This document shows positions 12,125 to 60,936 of a stretch of DNA of 64,000 nucleotides, piece by piece. The first letter of the stretch is position 1. Every line of letters starts with the position of its first letter. Below the pieces are notes generated by a model that saw nothing but the letters and a program-made list of their open reading frames with translations, was not told the origin of the DNA and did no database searches. The translations under genes and the position numbers were made by a program. Source of the DNA: Actinomycetota bacterium (GTDB taxonomy: Bacteria > Actinomycetota > CADDZG01 > JAHWKV01); contig JAHWKU010000006.1 in assembly GCA_019347715.1 (NCBI GenBank), positions 1 to 64,000 of the forward strand, read 5' to 3'.

Positions 12125-13182
12125 CGAATGGGGAGGAGATTCTTCGCGTTGAGAATCTCGTCAAGCACTTCCCTGTGACCAGGGGGCTCATACTGAGGAA
12201 GCAGATTGGGACGGTCAAGGCGGTCGACGGCGTCAACCTGTCACTCCGGACCGGGGAAACTCTGGGTCTGGTGGGGGAGTCCGGATGTGGCAAGTCCACT
12301 CTCGCCAGGTGCATACTGCGGCTGATCGAGCCGACCTCAGGAAAAGTTGTTTTCGAGGGCCAAGAGGTCCAGGGTCTCGGTAGGAAAGCACTTAGGACAT
12401 TGCGCCGCGATATCCAAATCGTGTTTCAGGATCCATATGCTTCGCTCAATCCCCGAATGACGGTAAAGGACATAGTCGCCGAGCCCATGAAGGTCCATGG
12501 GCTTTGGAAGTCCGGGGGTACCGGCAAGGTGAGGGACCTGCTCGAGCGGGTTGGGCTCAACCCCGAGCATGCCTCTCGCTACCCCCACGAGTTCTCGGGG
12601 GGGCAGCGACAGCGGATCGGCATTGCTAGAGCTCTGGCTCTGGAGCCAAAACTTGTTGTTTGCGACGAGCCGGTTTCTGCTCTGGACGTTTCGATCCAGG
12701 CGCAGATCATCAATCTCCTGGATGATTTGCAGGACGAGCTAAGGTTGACCTACATATTCATTGCTCACGATCTTTCAGTGGTCCGGCACATCAGCGACCG
12801 CGTATCAGTGATGTATCTCGGCAAAATCGTCGAAACCGCCGATCGTCGCGCGCTGTATGAAGAACCCATCCATCCCTATACGCAGGCTTTGTTATCTGCT
12901 GTTCCCATTCCCGATCCCACCAGAGAGCGGGAGAGGAAGCGAATCATCTTGAGGGGAGATGTTCCCAGTCCCCTCAACCCTCCTGGGGGTTGTCGTTTCC
13001 ATACGAGATGTTTCCGCTCGCAGGAGGTGGCCGAACGTGGTGAGGCAGAATCGACCGAAATTGGCCTGACCGTAAGAAGGAAGATTGCTACGGTTTGCAT
13101 GACCGATGAACCACCCCTTGTTGAGCACCAGCCGCGTCACGCCGCCGCGTGCCACTTTCCGAAACACCAGACCATTCTCTGA
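12121..13182 (+). CDS. Peptide ABC transporter ATPase, DppF/OppF family
   Basis: This is the second nucleotide-binding subunit. Walker A is GESGCGKST (52-60), signature [12 protein letters not shown], Walker [12 protein letters not shown], with the [15 protein letters not shown] block specific to DppF/OppF. A C-terminal CRFHTRC motif matches the oligopeptide domain. ATG 12121 overlaps the preceding stop (ATGA). Length 353 residues. It completes a five-gene importer and is followed by four more SBP genes. Confidence 0.93.
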
Positions 13183-13186
13183 CCGG

Positions 13187-14761
13187 GTGTCTGCCGCACG
13201 ATTCCTGTGGTTCAAGAGCGCGGCATTGGTCGCTCTGGCGTTCTTGAGCTCCTGCTCAGTACAGCGGGATAATCAGTCCCCCGAACCGGTAACCGATGCG
13301 GTTCTATCGGTGGCCTTAACCGGCATCGACTCGCTGGATCCGGCCCGCGGAACTTCGTATTCGTCACTCATGATCCTGCGGACGGCTTGCGACGGGCTAA
13401 CGACTATCGACTCAGACGGAGAGACTCGCCGGGCCTTGGCGTCGGGGTGGCGTGTGTCCAACGCTGGGTCGATGGTCACGTTCGAACTGGAAGACGGTGC
13501 CGAGTTTCTGGACGGTACTCTTGTCACCGCGCAGTCGGTTGTGGAATCACTTTCGAGGATCACTCGCCCCGAAACCTCTTCCCCATGGGCATCCCTGCTT
13601 TCCGATGTGGAGGGATTTGCCGAAGTAGCAGCAGGGGCGGCGACCTCCCTTTCCGGCCTGCGAGCTCCTGATACCAACACGCTCGAGGTGGTGCTCACCA
13701 ACCCATTCGCCGATCTTCCCAGGCTGCTCGCTCACCCGGCATTTGTTCCCGTGAGTGTTGGAGCCGAAGGGACGATCACTTGTTCCGGCCCATACGAGAT
13801 CCAGGAGCCAGCCGGGCCAGCCGGGGCAGAAGTCGTGCTGGAGCGAGCGACTGGAGCAGCCGGGGGGTTGCTGAAGACGATCCATTTCAAAGTAACCGAC
13901 ACTCCGGACGATGCATACCGTCTCTTTCAGGAAGGGCAGGCCGGGGCTTCGGTGGTTCCTGATGCTGCGGTCGGGGAAGCGTCTTCCGTGCGAAAGGGCT
14001 ATCTGAGGGCCGAAACTCCCGAGATCACGTTTCTCGCAATGGATGTCACCAAACCTCCTACCGACAACGAGCGCCTTCGTCAGGCCATTTCGTTGGCCTT
14101 GGATCGTCTGGCGACCATCGATGCAACGTTCGGCGATCAACGGCCTCCGGCTGTGAGATGGATCCCGGGAACCGAAGGAGACGGAGGGTCATGCTCCGAT
14201 CTGATAAGGCGTATATCGGATCCGGAGAGAGCAAAGCAGCTCATGAGCGAATCGGGAGTCGACCCCTCTGGAGTGCAGCTTCCTTTTTACTTCGACCAAA
14301 CCAAGACGGGGCGATTGGTTGTTCAAGCCATCGAAGTTCAGATCGCAGACGGCTTGGGGCTGAGGCTGACACCGTCTCCGCACGACCCGCCCGGGATGGA
14401 TGCCTCGATGACGGCCAGGACCGGGGCGGGGGTGTGGATGCTCTCGTATGGACAGGAACTGCCACTTCCAGGCCTCGTCGTCGATGCGCTCTTTCGAACC
14501 GGATCCCCTGCGAATCGTCTCGGTTTTTCTGATCCTGCCGTGGATGAGGCTCTTGCCGCAGCCAGACGGTCGGCGGACACAGAAGACAGAGAGCGCGCAT
14601 ATCTGGAGGCAGAGAGTCTGATTTGTCAGAGGATGCCCGCGGTTCCTCTTTGGAGAGGAGTTCGTCACTGGGCATACGATCCCGCCAAGCTCGGTTTTGA
14701 AGGCAGTGATGGGGTCGACTCCGCGGGCGGAATGGTCCTCCGGGACGCGCGTGTTCCTTGA
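13187..14761 (+). CDS. Family-5 extracellular solute-binding lipoprotein (SBP 2)
   Basis: This protein resembles SBP 1 in fold family but is clearly diverged. From GTG 13187, 4 nt after the DppF stop, the product has a compact signal peptide with Arg5 and a lipobox LSSC (Cys23); an upstream ATG at 13106 inside dppF is possible but would bury the signal. The body has the SBP_bac_5 pattern SLDPARGTSYSS and a late QAISLALDRLATI block. Length 525. It presumably feeds the same permease or acts as a ligand sensor; the ligand is unknown. Confidence 0.8.
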   Translation: MSAARFLWFKSAALVALAFLSSCSVQRDNQSPEPVTDAVLSVALTGIDSLDPARGTSYSSLMILRTACDGLTTIDSDGETRRALASGWRVSNAGSMVTFELEDGAEFLDGTLVTAQSVVESLSRITRPETSSPWASLLSDVEGFAEVAAGAATSLSGLRAPDTNTLEVVLTNPFADLPRLLAHPAFVPVSVGAEGTITCSGPYEIQEPAGPAGAEVVLERATGAAGGLLKTIHFKVTDTPDDAYRLFQEGQAGASVVPDAAVGEASSVRKGYLRAETPEITFLAMDVTKPPTDNERLRQAISLALDRLATIDATFGDQRPPAVRWIPGTEGDGGSCSDLIRRISDPERAKQLMSESGVDPSGVQLPFYFDQTKTGRLVVQAIEVQIADGLGLRLTPSPHDPPGMDASMTARTGAGVWMLSYGQELPLPGLVVDALFRTGSPANRLGFSDPAVDEALAAARRSADTEDRERAYLEAESLICQRMPAVPLWRGVRHWAYDPAKLGFEGSDGVDSAGGMVLRDARVP

Positions 14762-14777
14762 TAGGCTCATCCGACTC

Positions 14778-16451
14778 ATGACCCGGAGAAGTTTCGTCGC
14801 GTTCGTAACCTTGCTGCTCGCCCTTACTTCCTGTGACCTAACGACCGGGGACCCGAAGCCCGAAAAGCCTGCACCCCGTCGCGGTGGGACGATAACCGTC
14901 GCGATAACCGAGCCATCGACTCTCGATCCCTCCAAGGGAGCAGACCGCAACCCCGAGGCATCCTTTTCGGTCGGCCCTGGACTATTGATAGTCGCTCAGA
15001 TCTGTGATCCCTTGGTTGCCGTCGACCCCGACACCGGGGAGATCGAGGGGTTGGCGGCGGAATCCTGGTCCTATTCCGAGGACGTCAAGAAAGTAACGTT
15101 CAAATTGAGGCAGGGAGTTAAGTTCCACAATGGCAGGGATGTAACTGCCGAGGACTACGTCTTCTCGATCTCACGCTTCGTTCACAAGGATTCTGGTTCC
15201 TCGAGACGCTACTGGTTCCAGAATGTAGTTGGCTACCAGCAGGCAGTGGATGGAACAGCCCCAACGATCTCAGGGGTGAGAGCTCTCGATCCTCTGACTC
15301 TGGAAATAGAGTTGACCGAACCTTTTGCGGAACTGCCCGCAATCCTTTCGCATCCTGCGGCGGGCTCGGCGCTGCCGAAGGAGGAGGTCGACAAGGGAGC
15401 AGAGAGCTTCGCTGCCAATCCCGTATGCACCGGCCCGTATGCTCTTCGCGAACCCAGGACGGCGGGGGCACCGATCACTCTGAAGCGTGCCGAAGGTTAT
15501 TCACTGGAACATCCTTTTCTCGCCGGGGAAGGCGCGGGCTACGCCGATGAAATGGTTTTCACGTTGGCGCCATCTCTGGATGACGGCTACAAGTTGCTTG
15601 ACGACGGCACAGCCGATGTGGCCGAAGTTCCGCTCAACGAGCAATTGAACAATGCCAGGCGCGTCGATGGGCGATTGTCATCCGGACCTAACGGGCATGT
15701 GGCATACGTCGGTTTTCCCGTCACGAAGGAGCCATACACCAAGCCCGACGCGAGAAAGGCTTTTGCCCTGGCCCTCGACAGGAAAGAGATCATCGAGGAC
15801 CTGCTTGCGGGATCGCGACTCATGCCGAAGGGTTTCCTGCCGGCGAGTGCCGGACCGGCTTCGAGTTCGGTATGCGAGGAAACCATGCCGCCAACCAGCC
15901 GTCCGGAAGGAGCCAAGGCTGCCTTTTCCGCGGCCGCATTGGATCCGGCAGCTGTGAAACCGATGATCCACTTCAACAACGGAGCCTCCGGTCACGGCCT
16001 TTGGCTCACAAAGGTGATGGAAAAGTGGGAGGCGCATCTGGGAGTGGACGCGACGCTGGTCCCTCACGAAGAAGAACTGCTCCGATATCTCGACTTCCTC
16101 GCGGAAGGTCGGCAGGACGGTCCCTTCCGCCTGGCCTGGTCAGTCGAATATCCCTCCCCGGAGGCTCTCTTGGGATCGATCTTCCGGGGAGGAAGTCTCG
16201 ATAACTTCAGCGGGTATGCCTCTCCAGAATTCGACGGCATCCTCAATCAGGCTCGCGCGGCTACCGATGCCGAGGAGCGAGTTGGATTTTACGTACAGGC
16301 TGCTGACCTTCTCTGCCGGGATCTGCCTGCCCTAGTCATGTGGTTCGGCGCTAGCCACGTTGCCTTTTCCAGTCGAGTTGTCGCCGCCGGGGAGGACAGG
16401 CTCGATATATTCGGTTACCCACGCCTGCGTGAGCTGGGGGAACGATCCTAG
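14778..16451 (+). CDS. Family-5 extracellular solute-binding lipoprotein (SBP 3)
   Basis: ATG 14778 gives a short signal peptide with two arginines and lipobox LALTSC (Cys19). The mature part begins TITVAITEPSTLDPSKG and continues with VKFHNGRDVTAEDYVFS, the classical SBP_bac_5 signature, and RKAFALALDRKEI. Length 558. It starts 16 nt after SBP 2 and is co-directional. It shares with SBP 2 and SBP 4 a similar layout (PETTL/LDPL-type strand, PFAELPAILSHPA), suggesting tandem duplication followed by divergence. Confidence 0.85.
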   Translation: MTRRSFVAFVTLLLALTSCDLTTGDPKPEKPAPRRGGTITVAITEPSTLDPSKGADRNPEASFSVGPGLLIVAQICDPLVAVDPDTGEIEGLAAESWSYSEDVKKVTFKLRQGVKFHNGRDVTAEDYVFSISRFVHKDSGSSRRYWFQNVVGYQQAVDGTAPTISGVRALDPLTLEIELTEPFAELPAILSHPAAGSALPKEEVDKGAESFAANPVCTGPYALREPRTAGAPITLKRAEGYSLEHPFLAGEGAGYADEMVFTLAPSLDDGYKLLDDGTADVAEVPLNEQLNNARRVDGRLSSGPNGHVAYVGFPVTKEPYTKPDARKAFALALDRKEIIEDLLAGSRLMPKGFLPASAGPASSSVCEETMPPTSRPEGAKAAFSAAALDPAAVKPMIHFNNGASGHGLWLTKVMEKWEAHLGVDATLVPHEEELLRYLDFLAEGRQDGPFRLAWSVEYPSPEALLGSIFRGGSLDNFSGYASPEFDGILNQARAATDAEERVGFYVQAADLLCRDLPALVMWFGASHVAFSSRVVAAGEDRLDIFGYPRLRELGERS

Positions 16452-16474
16452 GTATCCGTCCTCTGGCCTTTGCG

Positions 16475-17995
16475 ATGGCCGGGTTGTTGTTCGCAACTGC
16501 GTGCTTCGATAGAGGGGACGAACGCACCGCTAGCGACATGCGAGTGGCAATACTCCAGCCGGCATCTCTGGACCCGGTTCGGATCCGAGATACCGCTGCC
16601 TCCCTGATTGCGCGTCAGGTGTTCGCCCCGCTGGCATCCTTTGACCCGATCACGAATCGTTTGGTTCCTGGCGCGGCGGATTGGGAGACTCACGACGGGG
16701 GAGGACGTTTCATCTTCCGTTTGAGAGATGGACTCAGGTTTCATAACGGCCGGCCGGTCACGTCAGCCGATGTCGTGTTTTCTCTGAACCGTCTGGCCGC
16801 GAAGGCTACGGGTTCTGATCTTGCCTTTCTTCTCAGTGAGGTATTGGGATTCGAGCATGTCAACCAGAGTGGGACGGCGTCCGAGCTGGAGGGTGTCCGG
16901 GCCATGGACGACTCGACCGTCGAGATCAGGCTAAGAGCCGGCTGGTTTGATTTTCCTTATGTGCTGACCCACCCCGCGACCGCCCCCGTGCCCATGGAGG
17001 AATTTCTTGCCGACCCTGAAGGATTTCGTAAGAAACCGATTGGTGCAGGTCCTTATGCGTTCACCGGCCCCGTCGAGCCAGGTGGAGACGTATTCCTGGA
17101 ATCGACGTCCCATGCGTCAACAGACGTAAAGATAGAGAAGGTCTCGTTCCTGGTTTACTCGAACTCCTTTGCGGCCTTCCGGGACTTCGAACGAGAGGAG
17201 GTGGACGTCGCCGAAGTTCCGGTCGACGGACCGAGATCACTGGCCACCTTCGAAGGGACCGCAGGATTCAAACCGGTGGCGGCGATGCTCCACGCCGGCT
17301 TCAACTTAAAGCACCCGAAATTCGGGAACGTACGGTTTAGGGAAGCCATCAGTCTTGCGATCGACCGCGCCAACCTTGCTCAAGCAGGGTATTTCAATAC
17401 GCTCTCTCCAGCTTCCGGACTGATTCCCAAGGGCCTGCCTCCAGCGGGTGGGGCGTGTGGAGACCGGTGCGAGCAGGATCTGGATCGCGCCCGTGTGCTT
17501 ATCGATGAGGCCTTTGGAGGGACTCCACCCTCTCTGACTTTCGATTTCCCGAAGACCAGCCGTGATGAGGCTGCAGCTGAACTGCTCGCCGACGCTCTGA
17601 AGCAGATCGGTATCTCAGTAGAGCTTCGCTCCCATGAACTGACCGACTATGTGGGGCTCCTCGGTTCCGACAGTATCGAGATGTTCCGCCTCGGTTGGGT
17701 CGCAGAGTACCCACTGGCAGATTGGTTTATTACTCCTCTCTTCCGGTCCGACTCACCGGACAATCGCACCGGCTACGGATCCCAAGAAGTCGACGGCTTG
17801 ATCTCCCAAGCTCGCTTGGAGCCGGATCCGGCCACCAGGAATCGCCTGTACCGTGAGCTGGAAGCGAGGCTCTTGGCGGATATGCCGGTCGTTCCCCTGG
17901 GCCAATTCCAGAGCCGGTACGCTGCCAGAGACGTGGGGGGGTTCTATGTCGACACCCTCGGAACGTTCGAAGTGAGGAGGATGGATGGGAACTGA
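16475..17995 (+). CDS. Family-5 extracellular solute-binding lipoprotein (SBP 4)
   Basis: The body matches SBP_bac_5 (LRFHNGRPVTSADVVFS, FREAISLAIDRANL). From the only canonical start, ATG 16475, the signal peptide is only nine residues and has no basic residue before the lipobox LFATAC. The frame is open back to 16433; starting at AUC 16445, four bases after a GGGGG run, would restore a 20-residue signal with Arg5 and overlap the SBP 3 stop. I report the conservative start. Its stop overlaps SBP 5 by 11 nt. Confidence 0.82.
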   Translation: MAGLLFATACFDRGDERTASDMRVAILQPASLDPVRIRDTAASLIARQVFAPLASFDPITNRLVPGAADWETHDGGGRFIFRLRDGLRFHNGRPVTSADVVFSLNRLAAKATGSDLAFLLSEVLGFEHVNQSGTASELEGVRAMDDSTVEIRLRAGWFDFPYVLTHPATAPVPMEEFLADPEGFRKKPIGAGPYAFTGPVEPGGDVFLESTSHASTDVKIEKVSFLVYSNSFAAFRDFEREEVDVAEVPVDGPRSLATFEGTAGFKPVAAMLHAGFNLKHPKFGNVRFREAISLAIDRANLAQAGYFNTLSPASGLIPKGLPPAGGACGDRCEQDLDRARVLIDEAFGGTPPSLTFDFPKTSRDEAAAELLADALKQIGISVELRSHELTDYVGLLGSDSIEMFRLGWVAEYPLADWFITPLFRSDSPDNRTGYGSQEVDGLISQARLEPDPATRNRLYRELEARLLADMPVVPLGQFQSRYAARDVGGFYVDTLGTFEVRRMDGN

Positions 17996-19586
17996 TTCGG
18001 CAAGACGCTGGCGTACCAGCCTGCTTCCCCTGGCGATCCTTCTTGCAGTATTTGGTGCGTCGGCCTTATTGCTCTTCAGAGCCCAGGGGCCTGGGGGTGA
18101 CGATGGGGAAGCGGAGAGACTGATTCCCGAGGGAACGATCACGGTTGCATACCCAGAGGAGCCCCTATCGCTCAATCCCTATACCTTCGAAGGAGACTCA
18201 AACGCTACGAGAGATCTTCTTCGGCCGGTAATGCCGACCCTGCTTGTGATCGACCCTGAAATGAATTACCGGCCCGGCCTCGCCGTGAGAGTCCCGACTG
18301 ACGAAGACATCGAGCTGGATCCGTTCACGGTGACCTTTCGATTGAGGTCCGATGCACGGTGGTCTGATGGGGCCCCGATCACATCGGCGGACGTTCGGTT
18401 CACCTGGGAGACCATCCGTAACCCTGCGTGGCCAATTGCGAGGAGATATCCGTACGACCGGATCACCGACGTCAGGGAAGTAAGTCCCAGAACGGTAGAG
18501 GTCGTCTTCGATGGTCCCTATCCAGCCTGGCGAGATGTCTTCTCCGCAGGCGATTTCATACTCCCGAAGCATGCTCTCGAGGGCAAGGATTTTGCTGCAG
18601 AATTCCGCGACGGACTCCCGGTTGGAGCGGGACCATATGTCTTGGAGGCGTGGGAGAAGGGACTCCAGGTGGTCTATACGCCCAACCCGAATTGGTGGGG
18701 TGAAGGTCCGGCTATCGAGCGGATTCGGATAGCTTTCGTACCGTCGTTCGAAATCGCGCAGAACCTTCTGGAACGCCGGGAGGTGGATGCCCTCGTCACA
18801 ACGTCAAGGATTTCGACGAAGCGGCGGATAGAGCAGGATCCAGGTTCACTCTCGAAATCGTCTCTCGGATCTTCATGGTGGGAGCTTCTACCAAATGCCG
18901 CCAGTGCCAAGTTGAATGAGATCGATCGAAGACGTTCTGTCTTCTACGCAATCGATAGGGCAGGGATAGCCGAGGCCTTGATCCGCAGTGACGGGAGGGG
19001 CCTCCACCATCTCCGTCCTGGTTCAGAGCAGCAAGATATCTTCGATCGTTACGAGCGCGATCCCGAAGTGAGCAGGCAGGCAAGGGGTACTCGAGACCTG
19101 GGTACCCTTGCCTTGACGACTCCGGCCAGAAACGAAATGGCGCTGGCAGTGCAACGGTCGATCCAGGTAGGGCTGCGAGATGCTGACATCCGCTCGGAGA
19201 TAACCAATCCGGAAGCCGATCGTTTTTATGGAGACTGGTTGAGGGCGGGTACCTGGGATCTTGCCGTGGTTGAGAAGCGGGGGACTCCATCGTCAATTCT
19301 CCGGCGATTCCATTCCAGCCAGGCCGCTCCGAACGGCGTGAACTATTCCAGGCTGGCAGCAGCAAGTGTCGACCAAGCCGTGGATGCCAGCGAGAGAACC
19401 AGAGCCTTAGACCCCGCCCTGCTTGATGCGGTGATGGTCGCTCTTGCCGACGAAGCGGCAGTCCTTCCTATGTTCGAAGCGAGGATGTACGCAGGCTTCA
19501 GGCGTGGGATCGAAGGGATTGAACCGAACGCCACTATCGACGGACCCTTCTGGAACCTGGAACGATACAGAATCATGGCGCCTTAG
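17985..19586 (+). CDS. Family-5 solute-binding protein with N-terminal membrane anchor (SBP 5)
   Basis: This fifth paralogue differs in having an uncleaved-looking hydrophobic helix (about residues 13-31) after a basic N-terminus (ARRWR) and no lipobox cysteine. The body has the SBP_bac_5 features VRLRSDARWSDGAPITSADV-type strand near residue 110-135 and a duplicated-lobe layout, and is closer in style to SBP 1. Length 533. The last gene of the run, it ends 31 nt before tRNA-Leu. It could be anchored near the permease or be a non-transport binding protein. Confidence 0.82.
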   Translation: MGTDSARRWRTSLLPLAILLAVFGASALLLFRAQGPGGDDGEAERLIPEGTITVAYPEEPLSLNPYTFEGDSNATRDLLRPVMPTLLVIDPEMNYRPGLAVRVPTDEDIELDPFTVTFRLRSDARWSDGAPITSADVRFTWETIRNPAWPIARRYPYDRITDVREVSPRTVEVVFDGPYPAWRDVFSAGDFILPKHALEGKDFAAEFRDGLPVGAGPYVLEAWEKGLQVVYTPNPNWWGEGPAIERIRIAFVPSFEIAQNLLERREVDALVTTSRISTKRRIEQDPGSLSKSSLGSSWWELLPNAASAKLNEIDRRRSVFYAIDRAGIAEALIRSDGRGLHHLRPGSEQQDIFDRYERDPEVSRQARGTRDLGTLALTTPARNEMALAVQRSIQVGLRDADIRSEITNPEADRFYGDWLRAGTWDLAVVEKRGTPSSILRRFHSSQAAPNGVNYSRLAAASVDQAVDASERTRALDPALLDAVMVALADEAAVLPMFEARMYAGFRRGIEGIEPNATIDGPFWNLERYRIMAP

Positions 19587-19617: not shown

Positions 19618-19704
19618 GTCGGAGTGGCGGAACATGGTAGACGCGCCAGGTTGAGGGCCTGGTGACCTTAAACGGTCGTCGGGGTTCAAATCCCCGCTCC
19701 GACA
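19618..19704 (+). tRNA. tRNA-Leu (anticodon GAG)
   Basis: The acceptor arms GTCGGAG and CTCCGAC pair over 7 bp, followed by discriminator A. The anticodon stem CCAGG/CCTGG encloses the loop TTGAGGG with anticodon GAG. A long variable arm marks a class II tRNA, and the T arm CGGGG-TTCAAAT-CCCCG is canonical. Length is 87 nt and CCA is not encoded. The 3' 54 bases plus one more are repeated exactly at 20671-20725, so this gene is the attachment site of an integrated element. Confidence 0.95.
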
Positions 19705-19705
19705 C
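19651..19705 (+). repeat. attL-type direct repeat, 3' end of tRNA-Leu
   Basis: These 55 bp, from the anticodon loop to one base past the discriminator, are identical to 20671-20725; the flanking bases differ on both sides (G versus A, G versus T). The repeat lies at the 3' end of a tRNA, the usual crossover site for tyrosine recombinases. Confidence 0.9.
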
Positions 19706-19713
19706 GAACCCTA

Positions 19714-19750
19714 ATACATCGTCACCTTCACTTAGGTGGACGCGATGTAT
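19714..19750. other. Inverted repeat / stem-loop at left end of the element
   Basis: Outer arms ATACATCG (19714-19721) and CGATGTAT (19743-19750) are perfect complements and enclose inner arms CACCT (19723-19727) and AGGTG (19734-19738). The octamer CTTAGGTG at 19731-19738 recurs at 19767-19774, close to the gene start. This could be recombinase arm binding, an operator or an RNA hairpin. Confidence 0.55.
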
Positions 19751-19786
19751 AGGCTGTTCCCCGGACCTTAGGTGAAGGGGGCTCAG

Positions 19787-20593
19787 ATGGCGGATGAGCA
19801 GAAGGCTGCTAAGGCGGAGGCGGCAGCTGACAAGGCCCGAGCTAAGGCCATGAGGCCTTGGTACAAGAAGAAGCGAATCATCATTCCGCTTATCCTTCTC
19901 TCGTTGGTCGTCCTCATAGTCGCGGTGAGCTCCTGGGGTGAGACGGACATCGACGACATTACTTCTCCAACTGAACAAGACACTCCGGCTGAATCTGAGT
20001 CCGCACCGGAGGAGTCTCCAGAACCTTCTCCGCCTCCTAAAGAGATACCGCCGCAGACATTTAGCGGCCGGAATCAGGGGGCAACTCAAAACTTTCACAT
20101 CGAAGGAGGCCTCACGATCTTTCGGATGAAGCACTCAGGGAGCGCCAATTTTGCTCCTAAGCTCATTACGGCAGAAGGCGAAGATACGGAGCTACTCGCT
20201 AACGAGATCGGAGACTTCGAAGGTGCGAAGGCGGTGGGGGTGCCAGCCGGAGAGTACGTCCTCGACGTAACTGCGAGCGGAACTTGGGAGATCGTGATGG
20301 AGCAACCTAGACCAACGACAGCTCCTGGTTTACCGCAGGTGTTCAATGGAGCGCATCAAGCAGTCTCAGGATTGTTCGCTGCCGAACGCGGTTTGGTCCG
20401 TTTCGAGATGGATCACCAGGGAGATGGGAATTGGGCCCCGCTTCTTCTCAATGCTGATGGGGAGCGGATCGAGTTGTTAGCCAATGAAATAGGCAAGTTT
20501 CAGGGGTCGAAGGCTGTTCGAATACCTCAGACGGGAATCTACATAATCGACGTAACCGCGAACGGGAACTGGAGCATCACAGTAGCCACGTAG
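19787..20593 (+). CDS. Membrane-anchored protein with duplicated extracytoplasmic domain, element cargo
   Basis: I do not recognise a named function. ATG 19787 is chosen because AGGGGG lies 6 nt upstream. The 268-residue product has a charged Ala/Lys-rich cytoplasmic N-terminus (1-30), one membrane helix (about 31-47), an acidic Pro/Glu linker (51-90) and two copies of an about 80-residue domain (91-171 and 185-268). The copies share the block ELLANEIG, a following F-G-KAV, and the ending DVTA-G-W, with repeated GL--F-M-H. The pattern suggests beta-rich domains facing outward. It is the sole gene of the tRNA-Leu element, so it is likely accessory and acquired. Confidence 0.8.
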   Translation: MADEQKAAKAEAAADKARAKAMRPWYKKKRIIIPLILLSLVVLIVAVSSWGETDIDDITSPTEQDTPAESESAPEESPEPSPPPKEIPPQTFSGRNQGATQNFHIEGGLTIFRMKHSGSANFAPKLITAEGEDTELLANEIGDFEGAKAVGVPAGEYVLDVTASGTWEIVMEQPRPTTAPGLPQVFNGAHQAVSGLFAAERGLVRFEMDHQGDGNWAPLLLNADGERIELLANEIGKFQGSKAVRIPQTGIYIIDVTANGNWSITVAT

Positions 20594-20670
20594 GAGTGAC
20601 GAAGCGAGTCGGCTCAGTTTCAATTGGAATGCCGTACGTGAACGACTTAGCCCGGAGACTTCGCATTTGA

Positions 20671-20725
20671 TTGAGGGCCTGGTGACCTTAAACGGTCGTC
20701 GGGGTTCAAATCCCCGCTCCGACAC
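20671..20725 (+). repeat. attR-type direct repeat, tRNA-Leu 3' fragment
   Basis: This is the second copy of the 55-bp repeat. No acceptor 5' strand or D arm precedes it, so it is not a functional tRNA. The next three bases, 20726-20728, are the stop codon of the minus-strand gene. Confidence 0.9.
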
Positions 20726-21271
20726 TCAGATGATTCGGCGGCTGCCCCTTTTCCACATCTCCCTCCGCACTTGACGCCGGCTTGCCCCGGCTTCGATCGG
20801 TTCTCCTACGGGAGCATGATGCTGGGTCAGCAAATCATGAAGGCGCGTGGTGTCCTTGAACGAAAGCTCCTCGAGGGTGAAGGAATGCCACAGCTGTTTA
20901 CCCGTCCTCCATGCATCGAGTCTCAGCCCCAAGCCGCGAAGGCCGCCGGCACCGGCGTCGGCGCGTTTGCTTACGATTCCCATGTAGGAGTACTCGCCGA
21001 TGTTGTATGGGTAGATCACATCCACTTCTTCCCATCGGAGCAGTCCCTTGGCAGGCGCCTCGATCCCTTCGGGGCCGATGCCGATAATCGGACTTCTAAG
21101 CACCAATCTCCTTAGGTAAATCATCGCCAGCGGAGCGAAGATGATGACGATCACCAGGAATCCCCACGGGAAACCAGACGTGATCAATCCGAACAGGCCG
21201 ATGGCGGTGCCGCAGGCTGCTGCAGCGAACATGATGAGGCTGCGCCATCTCGCAGGATAGAGGTGGGTCAT
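20726..21271 (-). CDS. Two-helix membrane protein with PH-like C-terminal domain
   Basis: No firm family is recognised. The 181-residue product has two adjacent hydrophobic helices (about 12-32 and 35-53), a short basic turn (RRLVLRS), then a soluble domain starting IIGIGPEGIEAPAKGLLRWEE. A strand then a tryptophan-rich bend following two short helices is reminiscent of bacterial PH-like domains at the membrane. The stop touches the attR repeat, so the gene's end marks the pre-integration border. It is divergent from nadE with only 36 bp between starts, and TATCCT sits 6 nt before its ATG. Confidence 0.7.
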   Translation of the reverse strand: MTHLYPARWRSLIMFAAAACGTAIGLFGLITSGFPWGFLVIVIIFAPLAMIYLRRLVLRSPIIGIGPEGIEAPAKGLLRWEEVDVIYPYNIGEYSYMGIVSKRADAGAGGLRGLGLRLDAWRTGKQLWHSFTLEELSFKDTTRLHDLLTQHHAPVGEPIEAGASRRQVRREMWKRGSRRII

Positions 21272-59803: not shown

Positions 59804-59913
59804 GCACTCAACCTAGCGCCCTCCATATCGGGGTGCAACCAACTGGAGCACTGAGATCAGTAATCTCGCTTGGAAATACCCCTTTGGGCAGGAAATTGAG
59901 GCAACATCGACCC

Positions 59914-60936
59914 ATGGCAGATCTAGCTCTCGACGCGATGCACAAATGGCTGATGGAATTAGGCAATGAAGGACGGTCAGGCCGGACGCTGGAAGCCTAC
60001 GAGGCAGACGTGTCCGACACCCTGGGCTTCATCTCTGATCAGATCGGTGTGTCCCTCGACAAGCTTTCTTTGGACCAGGTGGATCGCGACGTCCTTGTAG
60101 CTGCCATCGCAGAATTCAGGACCAGGCCCGATCCCCGCTTCAAACGTCATCCCGAGCACTCCCCCAGACAGCGCTCCCCTGCCCGGGTAGCCCGGAGGCT
60201 GGCTGCAATCAAGGTGTTTTTCAAATGGGCCTACGGGACCGGTCGCATCGCGTCCGACCCAGCGGCTTTGCTCAAGTCACCCAAGCGAACGAAGCGTCTT
60301 CCCAAAGCCCTAGAACCGGGCGCGGCTCGTTCGGTGATGAAGGCGGCTCAGGAGAGCCGATGGCCGGAGAGAGATCAGCTGATCGTTATCCTGGCTCTCA
60401 CCACCGGTCTCAGACTGGAAGAGATGGCCACCCTCAAAGTCAGCGATCTTTCTGGAGATCCTCTCGAAGCCCTAAACGTCGTCGGTAAAGGCAACAAGGA
60501 GCGCCGCCTCCCGATCCCAGAAGTAACTCAGCAGGCCCTGGCCGCATACCTTCCAACAAGAGCCAAGCGTTTGCGAGAGATGGGCCTCGACGCCAAGACC
60601 CTCTTCGTCTCCACCCGACCGAGGCGGATCGGTGGCACTGCGGATCAGCCGGTGATGGGAGTCGATGCAACGCGTGCCGGCATTGCATATGTGGTGGATC
60701 GAGTCCTGCGACAGGTGGGAGCACGCGTTCATGGGAGCCGAGTCCACGTTCTGCGCCACACCTTCGCAACACTCGGCCTGCGTCCGGATCCAGAAACCGG
60801 AATGCCGGCGTATTCGCTTAGACAGTTGCAGGCCGCCCTCGGACATTCCAATCTGTCTACGATTCAGGTCTACACGGAGGTATCGGACGCAGAGTTGGTA
60901 AAGGCCGCTTCTTCGCACCCTCTGGCTCAAAGCTGA
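59914..60936 (+). CDS. Tyrosine recombinase (XerC/XerD-like)
   Basis: The 340-residue product is a site-specific recombinase of the Xer type. Core-binding domain about 1-115; catalytic residues Arg167 (TTGLRLEE), Lys192 (GKGNKERR), His278 and Arg281 (HVLRHTF), His311 (LGHSN) and nucleophile Tyr320 (VYTEV) are all present. ATG 59914 is chosen, since the longer frame from 59833 begins inside AT-rich spacer. It could serve chromosome dimer resolution or act on an element such as the one at tRNA-Leu 39 kb away. Confidence 0.88.
   Translation: MADLALDAMHKWLMELGNEGRSGRTLEAYEADVSDTLGFISDQIGVSLDKLSLDQVDRDVLVAAIAEFRTRPDPRFKRHPEHSPRQRSPARVARRLAAIKVFFKWAYGTGRIASDPAALLKSPKRTKRLPKALEPGAARSVMKAAQESRWPERDQLIVILALTTGLRLEEMATLKVSDLSGDPLEALNVVGKGNKERRLPIPEVTQQALAAYLPTRAKRLREMGLDAKTLFVSTRPRRIGGTADQPVMGVDATRAGIAYVVDRVLRQVGARVHGSRVHVLRHTFATLGLRPDPETGMPAYSLRQLQAALGHSNLSTIQVYTEVSDAELVKAASSHPLAQS

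Follow-up and report, generated by a model that had tools for sequence, protein, structure and literature searches.

The analysed stretch (the window, G000:C52:1-64000) comprises 64,000 nucleotides of one contig of an actinobacterial assembly with 55 contigs, 2.43 Mb in total and 90% complete. ARAGORN detected a single tRNA gene in the window, tRNA-Leu(GAG), with its anticodon at tRNA position 36. On the same strand it is followed by a short leader, one gene, a second spacer and a displaced copy of the tRNA 3' part (Table 1). Four consecutive genes of solute-binding-protein size occupy positions 13106-19586 on the 5' side of the tRNA; the last two were assigned to SBP_bac_5 by Pfam, and the first two were recognised by mutual similarity to a pair in G004, a genome of the same family. 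The stop codon of the minus-strand gene on the far side directly abuts the repeat, as the first-pass annotation had described for the outer edge of the unit.

Table 1. Features of the tRNA-Leu(GAG) unit, its neighbours and the recombinase genes of the assembly (positions in the window unless a contig is given)
Feature	Position	Strand	Evidence or remark
Solute-binding protein (SBP_bac_5), upstream	17985..19586	+	Pfam PF00496
Intact tRNA-Leu(GAG), target gene	19618..19705	+	ARAGORN; Rfam RF00005, 50.7 bits
attL-like 55-bp copy, anticodon loop to tRNA 3' end	19651..19705	+	100% identity to 20671-20725
Leader between tRNA and gene, 81 bp	19706..19786	+	hairpin arms 19714-19721 / 19743-19750
Cargo gene, 268 aa	19787..20593	+	ORF; upstream GTG start at 19772 possible
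Spacer between gene and attR, 77 bp	20594..20670	+	six-frame reading; no stable fold
attR-like displaced tRNA 3' fragment	20671..20725	+	repeat match; no tRNA 5' half before it
Chromosomal neighbour, weakly STM3941-like	20726..21271	-	NCBIfam NF041635, 22 bits (cut-off 40)
XerC-like tyrosine recombinase, nearest one found	59833-60936		
Excisionase-like gene, then phage/ICE-type tyrosine integrase	G000:C15:21879-23470 (L066:1879-3470)		
Integron integrase	C20, about 17249-18100 (G000:C20:1-18594, L067)		TIGR02249, 354 bits (cut-off 265)

The two 55-nt direct repeats are identical in every position and lie 1,020 bp apart, exactly at the coordinates where a perfect recurrence had been claimed. 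Each copy extends from 2 nt 5' of the anticodon to 1 base beyond the discriminator. No other exact repeat of at least 30 nt exists in the 64-kb window, and a search of the whole assembly that allowed up to 3 mismatches gave these two copies only; the expectation for an exact repeat of 55 nt by chance is ∼1e-23. When the flanks were joined in silico, one intact tRNA-Leu was obtained, and the removed part would form a circle of 1,020 bp that contains a single copy of the repeat. No tRNA 5' half was detected ahead of the second copy: alignment of the preceding 40 nt to the tRNA 5' half gave no higher score than shuffled controls, and for this lack of similarity we rejected the view that the second copy is a whole tRNA gene in degenerate form. 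We surveyed 30 loci and further stretches of the assembly, which yielded 40 distinct tRNA sequences with their flanks, and none besides tRNA-Leu(GAG) had a 3' fragment nearby. The arrangement had been taken in the first-pass annotation for the signature of site-specific integration, and the tRNA, the repeat and the lone fragment among the surveyed tRNAs bear this out. We concluded that there is good support for site-specific integration at this tRNA gene.

The unit between the repeats is simple. Open reading frames and Pfam searches gave a single convincing gene and no integrase, in agreement with the earlier description, and neither a recombinase nor an attC site was found within the unit. 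Reading of the two spacers in all six frames revealed no visible integrase remnant. The hairpin in the leader folds with a z value of -2.69 relative to shuffles, and the octamer CTTAGGTG occurs twice in the leader, at 19731 and 19767. The leader may represent a tRNA terminator, a leader in the proper sense or a recombinase arm site.

The cargo protein reached the cut-off of no Pfam family, and a profile search of solved structures gave nothing convincing. An AlphaFold2 model computed from five sequences (mean pLDDT 82.6) predicts a long N-terminal helix, which includes a hydrophobic stretch, followed by two beta-sandwich repeats encoded at about 20045-20305 and 20336-20587. The top Foldseek match was to the tandem collagen-binding domains of clostridial ColG (E 3.9e-9, TM-score 0.27), a TM-score so low that the match is informative on the general fold type only. 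The modelled architecture would be consistent with a membrane-anchored surface protein. The GC content of the cargo gene is 55.1% compared to 58.3% for the window (∼2 sd low), whereas the copies in relatives are closer to their own surroundings.

We examined the distribution of cargo homologues in related genomes. Each of the five same-family genomes has a single homologue (41-45% identity), and where the contig covers the neighborhood the homologue stands between a DUF59 (MIP18-like) gene and dinB, near mraZ-mraW. The cargo gene is absent from the sister family (G006 and G007). In G006 dnaE2 stands near DUF59; in G007 it is also near DUF59, with a short ORF between the two that resembles an ORF beside dnaE2 in the window's genome (G000). 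In the latter genome dnaE2 is located beside dinB, and ∼7 kb of extra sequence precede DUF59, with no cargo homologue there. The loci compared for this gene order were L016, L018, L021, L022 and L023 vs. L029/L087 and L088/L089. Because the sister family is without the gene and has dnaE2 near DUF59, and G000 keeps dnaE2 beside dinB, DUF59-gene-dinB is probably a derived order in the relatives. A scenario in which G000 lost the gene from an original position between DUF59 and dinB was ruled out by the absence of the gene from the sister family, and a profile search detected no second cargo homologue in G000. In a search of contigs the single protein matched nothing, and with an alignment as query four of these relatives were matched. 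Within one family the gene is thus present at two different sites, and it has moved at least once.

At the level of the phylum the cargo family is patchy, with homologues in 37 of 397 sampled genomes. Relatives also occur on haloarchaeal plasmids and in the virus HJTV-4; the identity to the double beta-sandwich protein is 31% for HJTV-4 (L092) and 38% for Halorubrum plasmid pCBA1232-01 (L093), and the haloarchaeal relatives are annotated as hypothetical or as polysaccharide deacetylase. No cargo relatives were found in the viral contigs. The nearest relative by BLAST belongs to a genome of another class (G178; 51% over 176 aa), in which a large serine recombinase lies ∼4 kb from the homologue. 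The maximum-likelihood tree placed the window protein with its own family (support 85/92), and the alternative tree that joins it to the G178 homologue was not rejected (p = 0.216). Either transfer into the lineage or relocation within the family may account for this tree, which does not separate the two. Vertical descent of the cargo gene, named in the first-pass annotation as a second refuting observation, would agree with the family grouping but not with the link to G178 that the test retains as an alternative. In a further genome, G176, a distant homologue (L107:1495-2454) starts ∼90 bp 3' of a tRNA-Ala(CGC) on the same strand; no displaced tRNA fragment was found near it.

The first-pass annotation had proposed a comparison of the tRNA site in related genomes for empty sites. 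Three genomes of the same family, G003, G004 and G005, all of one genus that is not the genus of the window, carry tRNA-Leu(GAG) without a displaced fragment and thus represent empty sites of a related genus rather than the exact pre-insertion site. Upstream of this tRNA, G004 and G005 have a solute-binding-protein gene as the window does, checked where the contig allowed. A fixed arrangement shared by all relatives, named beforehand as evidence against integration, did not occur, and the relatives carry the gene elsewhere. Since the downstream flanks differ in all three relatives (L017, L019 and L020), the sequence 3' of tRNA-Leu(GAG) may be variable also where tRNA fragments are lacking, as judged from these flanking sequences.

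Searches of the assembly recovered three tyrosine recombinases (Table 1), and no sequence that ties any of them to tRNA-Leu(GAG) was detected. The integrase on contig C15 was rejected as a helper on the ground that none of the surveyed tRNAs, tRNA-Leu(GAG) among them, has a fragment on the C15 sequence examined. The integron integrase on contig C20 lacks the first part of the TIGR02249 profile, and the contig contains 28 attC matches over 16 kb. This integrase and most cassette genes are on the same strand, which is an unusual orientation. An integron on a contig of an actinobacterial assembly was also observed here, and C20 is possibly contamination. An origin from a phage with an identical attachment site was discarded, with no exact att match in the viral contigs.

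Several described systems resemble the unit in part. A cis-mobilizable element (CIME) has lost its integration and transfer genes and has kept attL and attR (PMC5704250). The unit likewise retains attL and attR as perfect 55-bp repeats and has no integration or transfer genes, but it holds only one gene in 1 kb, and ICE/IME ancestry and excisability are putative here. With islands of the type detected by Islander it shares the intact tRNA plus a displaced 3' fragment that is anticodon-centred, on the 3' side and in the same orientation. Islander demands an integrase in the interval and a length of 2 to 200 kb (PMC4383910), whereas the unit is without an integrase and, at 1,020 bp, below 2 kb; the claim that it is far smaller than described islands thus holds against this minimum. 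The Streptomyces islets are similar in being actinobacterial, near tRNA genes and flanked by repeats; among the tabulated islets considered here, those with both a tRNA and repeats measure about 5 to 21 kb and contain plasmid-, phage- or transposon-related genes (PMC1934918). Tycheposons also have cargo adjoining a tRNA gene, but they are described as 4 to 200 kb long with a XerD tyrosine recombinase (PMC10872708), and the unit has neither. An integron cassette is comparable in size (about 1 kb), in its one gene and in a recombinase located elsewhere; the unit differs in that it has no attC, lies outside an array and is bounded by tRNA-derived repeats. A MITE-like non-autonomous family would require several copies or sister units, whereas one unit and two repeat copies are present here. 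In the literature searched, with partial coverage, no described 1-kb case was found.

We consider it fairly probable that the unit is a decayed tRNA-gene element of the CIME-like type in which a single gene has been retained. A mobile element would have used the part of tRNA-Leu(GAG) from the anticodon loop to the 3' end as its attachment site. A tyrosine recombinase would have integrated the element, whose own 3' part would restore the tRNA, and the old 3' part would have been displaced to become attR. Later deletions would have removed the recombinase and all other genes of this presumably larger ancestor, and one gene for a predicted membrane-anchored double beta-sandwich protein would have been kept. 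The present state would be a fixed CIME-like stump that is unable to move itself; as both att sites are kept, excision by a related recombinase from outside would be possible in principle. The displaced fragment is consistent with such an origin in that it lies on the 3' side and on the same strand, is perfect and starts in the anticodon loop, and anticodon-centred sites are one main class of tRNA attachment site (PMC4383910). There is one copy and no family of similar units, which is more in keeping with decay than with an active cassette. The empty sites in relatives, the intact tRNA obtained on joining the flanks, the patchy cargo family with members on haloarchaeal plasmids and a virus, the serine recombinase near the G178 homologue and the low GC content of the cargo gene point in the same direction as the preferred reading. 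Several observations count against decay. No integrase or other mobility-gene remnant is left, and the gene is framed on both sides by neat margins of ∼80 bp, which would not necessarily result from random deletion. Since the two repeats have not diverged, integration may be too recent to have allowed a long decay. The placement of the protein with its own family (85/92) would fit a long-resident gene as well as an import.

The same anatomy could be read as a non-autonomous cassette of minimal size, in which a circle of 1,020 bp, comprising one gene and one tRNA-derived att, depends for integration and excision on a recombinase encoded elsewhere in the cell. In favor of this reading, a single gene lies neatly between perfect att-like repeats, and the genome encodes candidate enzymes in the C15 integrase, the C20 integron integrase and the XerC-like recombinase. 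We find it unlikely, given that the same ends bound neither another unit nor different cargo in the assembly, that no other 3' fragment lies near the 40 surveyed tRNAs and none matches the C15 sequence examined, that the viral contigs lack the att sequence, and that the window has no attC. That such a 1,020-bp one-gene cassette is functional, with the tRNA-Leu 3' end as att and thus a tRNA-targeting counterpart of integron cassettes, is still less likely. Of the two origins offered in the first-pass annotation, we favor the scar of a larger deletion, and the single-gene cassette moved in trans is left with the anatomy of the unit to speak for it. An actual integron gene cassette, put at a secondary site by the integron integrase of this genome, would have a similar size and a single gene, and the assembly has an integron with 28 attC matches on C20. 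A covariance model of the C20 attC sites finds none in the window, by which this candidate was ruled out, and cassette insertion yields no 55-bp tRNA repeat; we give this origin practically no credence.

The gene may also have changed place without a dedicated element, either as a circle or fragment that contained the gene together with a segment matching the tRNA 3' end exactly and recombined homologously over ∼55 bp, or through a local duplication of the repeat. Homologues in all five same-family genomes suggest that the gene may be a family resident, their position at another locus indicates that it changes place, and the family clade has a support of 85/92. The borders of the repeat, at the anticodon loop and the tRNA 3' end, are integrase-like, and random recombination would have no reason to respect them; a remnant of the tRNA 5' half is also missing ahead of the second copy. 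Such a relocation has a low probability in our estimate. An assembly artefact, in which a loop was closed through a 55-mer, e.g., by fusion with an unrelated molecule carrying the same tRNA 3' end, has to be weighed as well, because the repeat length of 55 nt is a common assembler k-mer size and the assembly is incomplete and in many contigs. No 55-mer was shared among 40 contig starts, 20 contig ends and both ends of C52, C15 and C20, and there is thus no sign of a k-mer artefact among the contig ends examined. A wrong join would still require a real molecule in which the gene is followed by the tRNA fragment, and the repeat borders agree with the biology. We regard an artefact as quite improbable.

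The decayed tRNA-gene element remains our preferred reading, and the unit is most likely a stump of a larger element rather than a new kind of cassette. It falls below the integrase and 2-kb filters of Islander, and since such filters drop units of this kind, their apparent rarity may partly reflect search design. If decay to one kept gene between tRNA repeats is true, single genes would be left in new places and surveys would miss them. Should units of this type instead remain mobile in trans, very small mobile genes would constitute an overlooked class.
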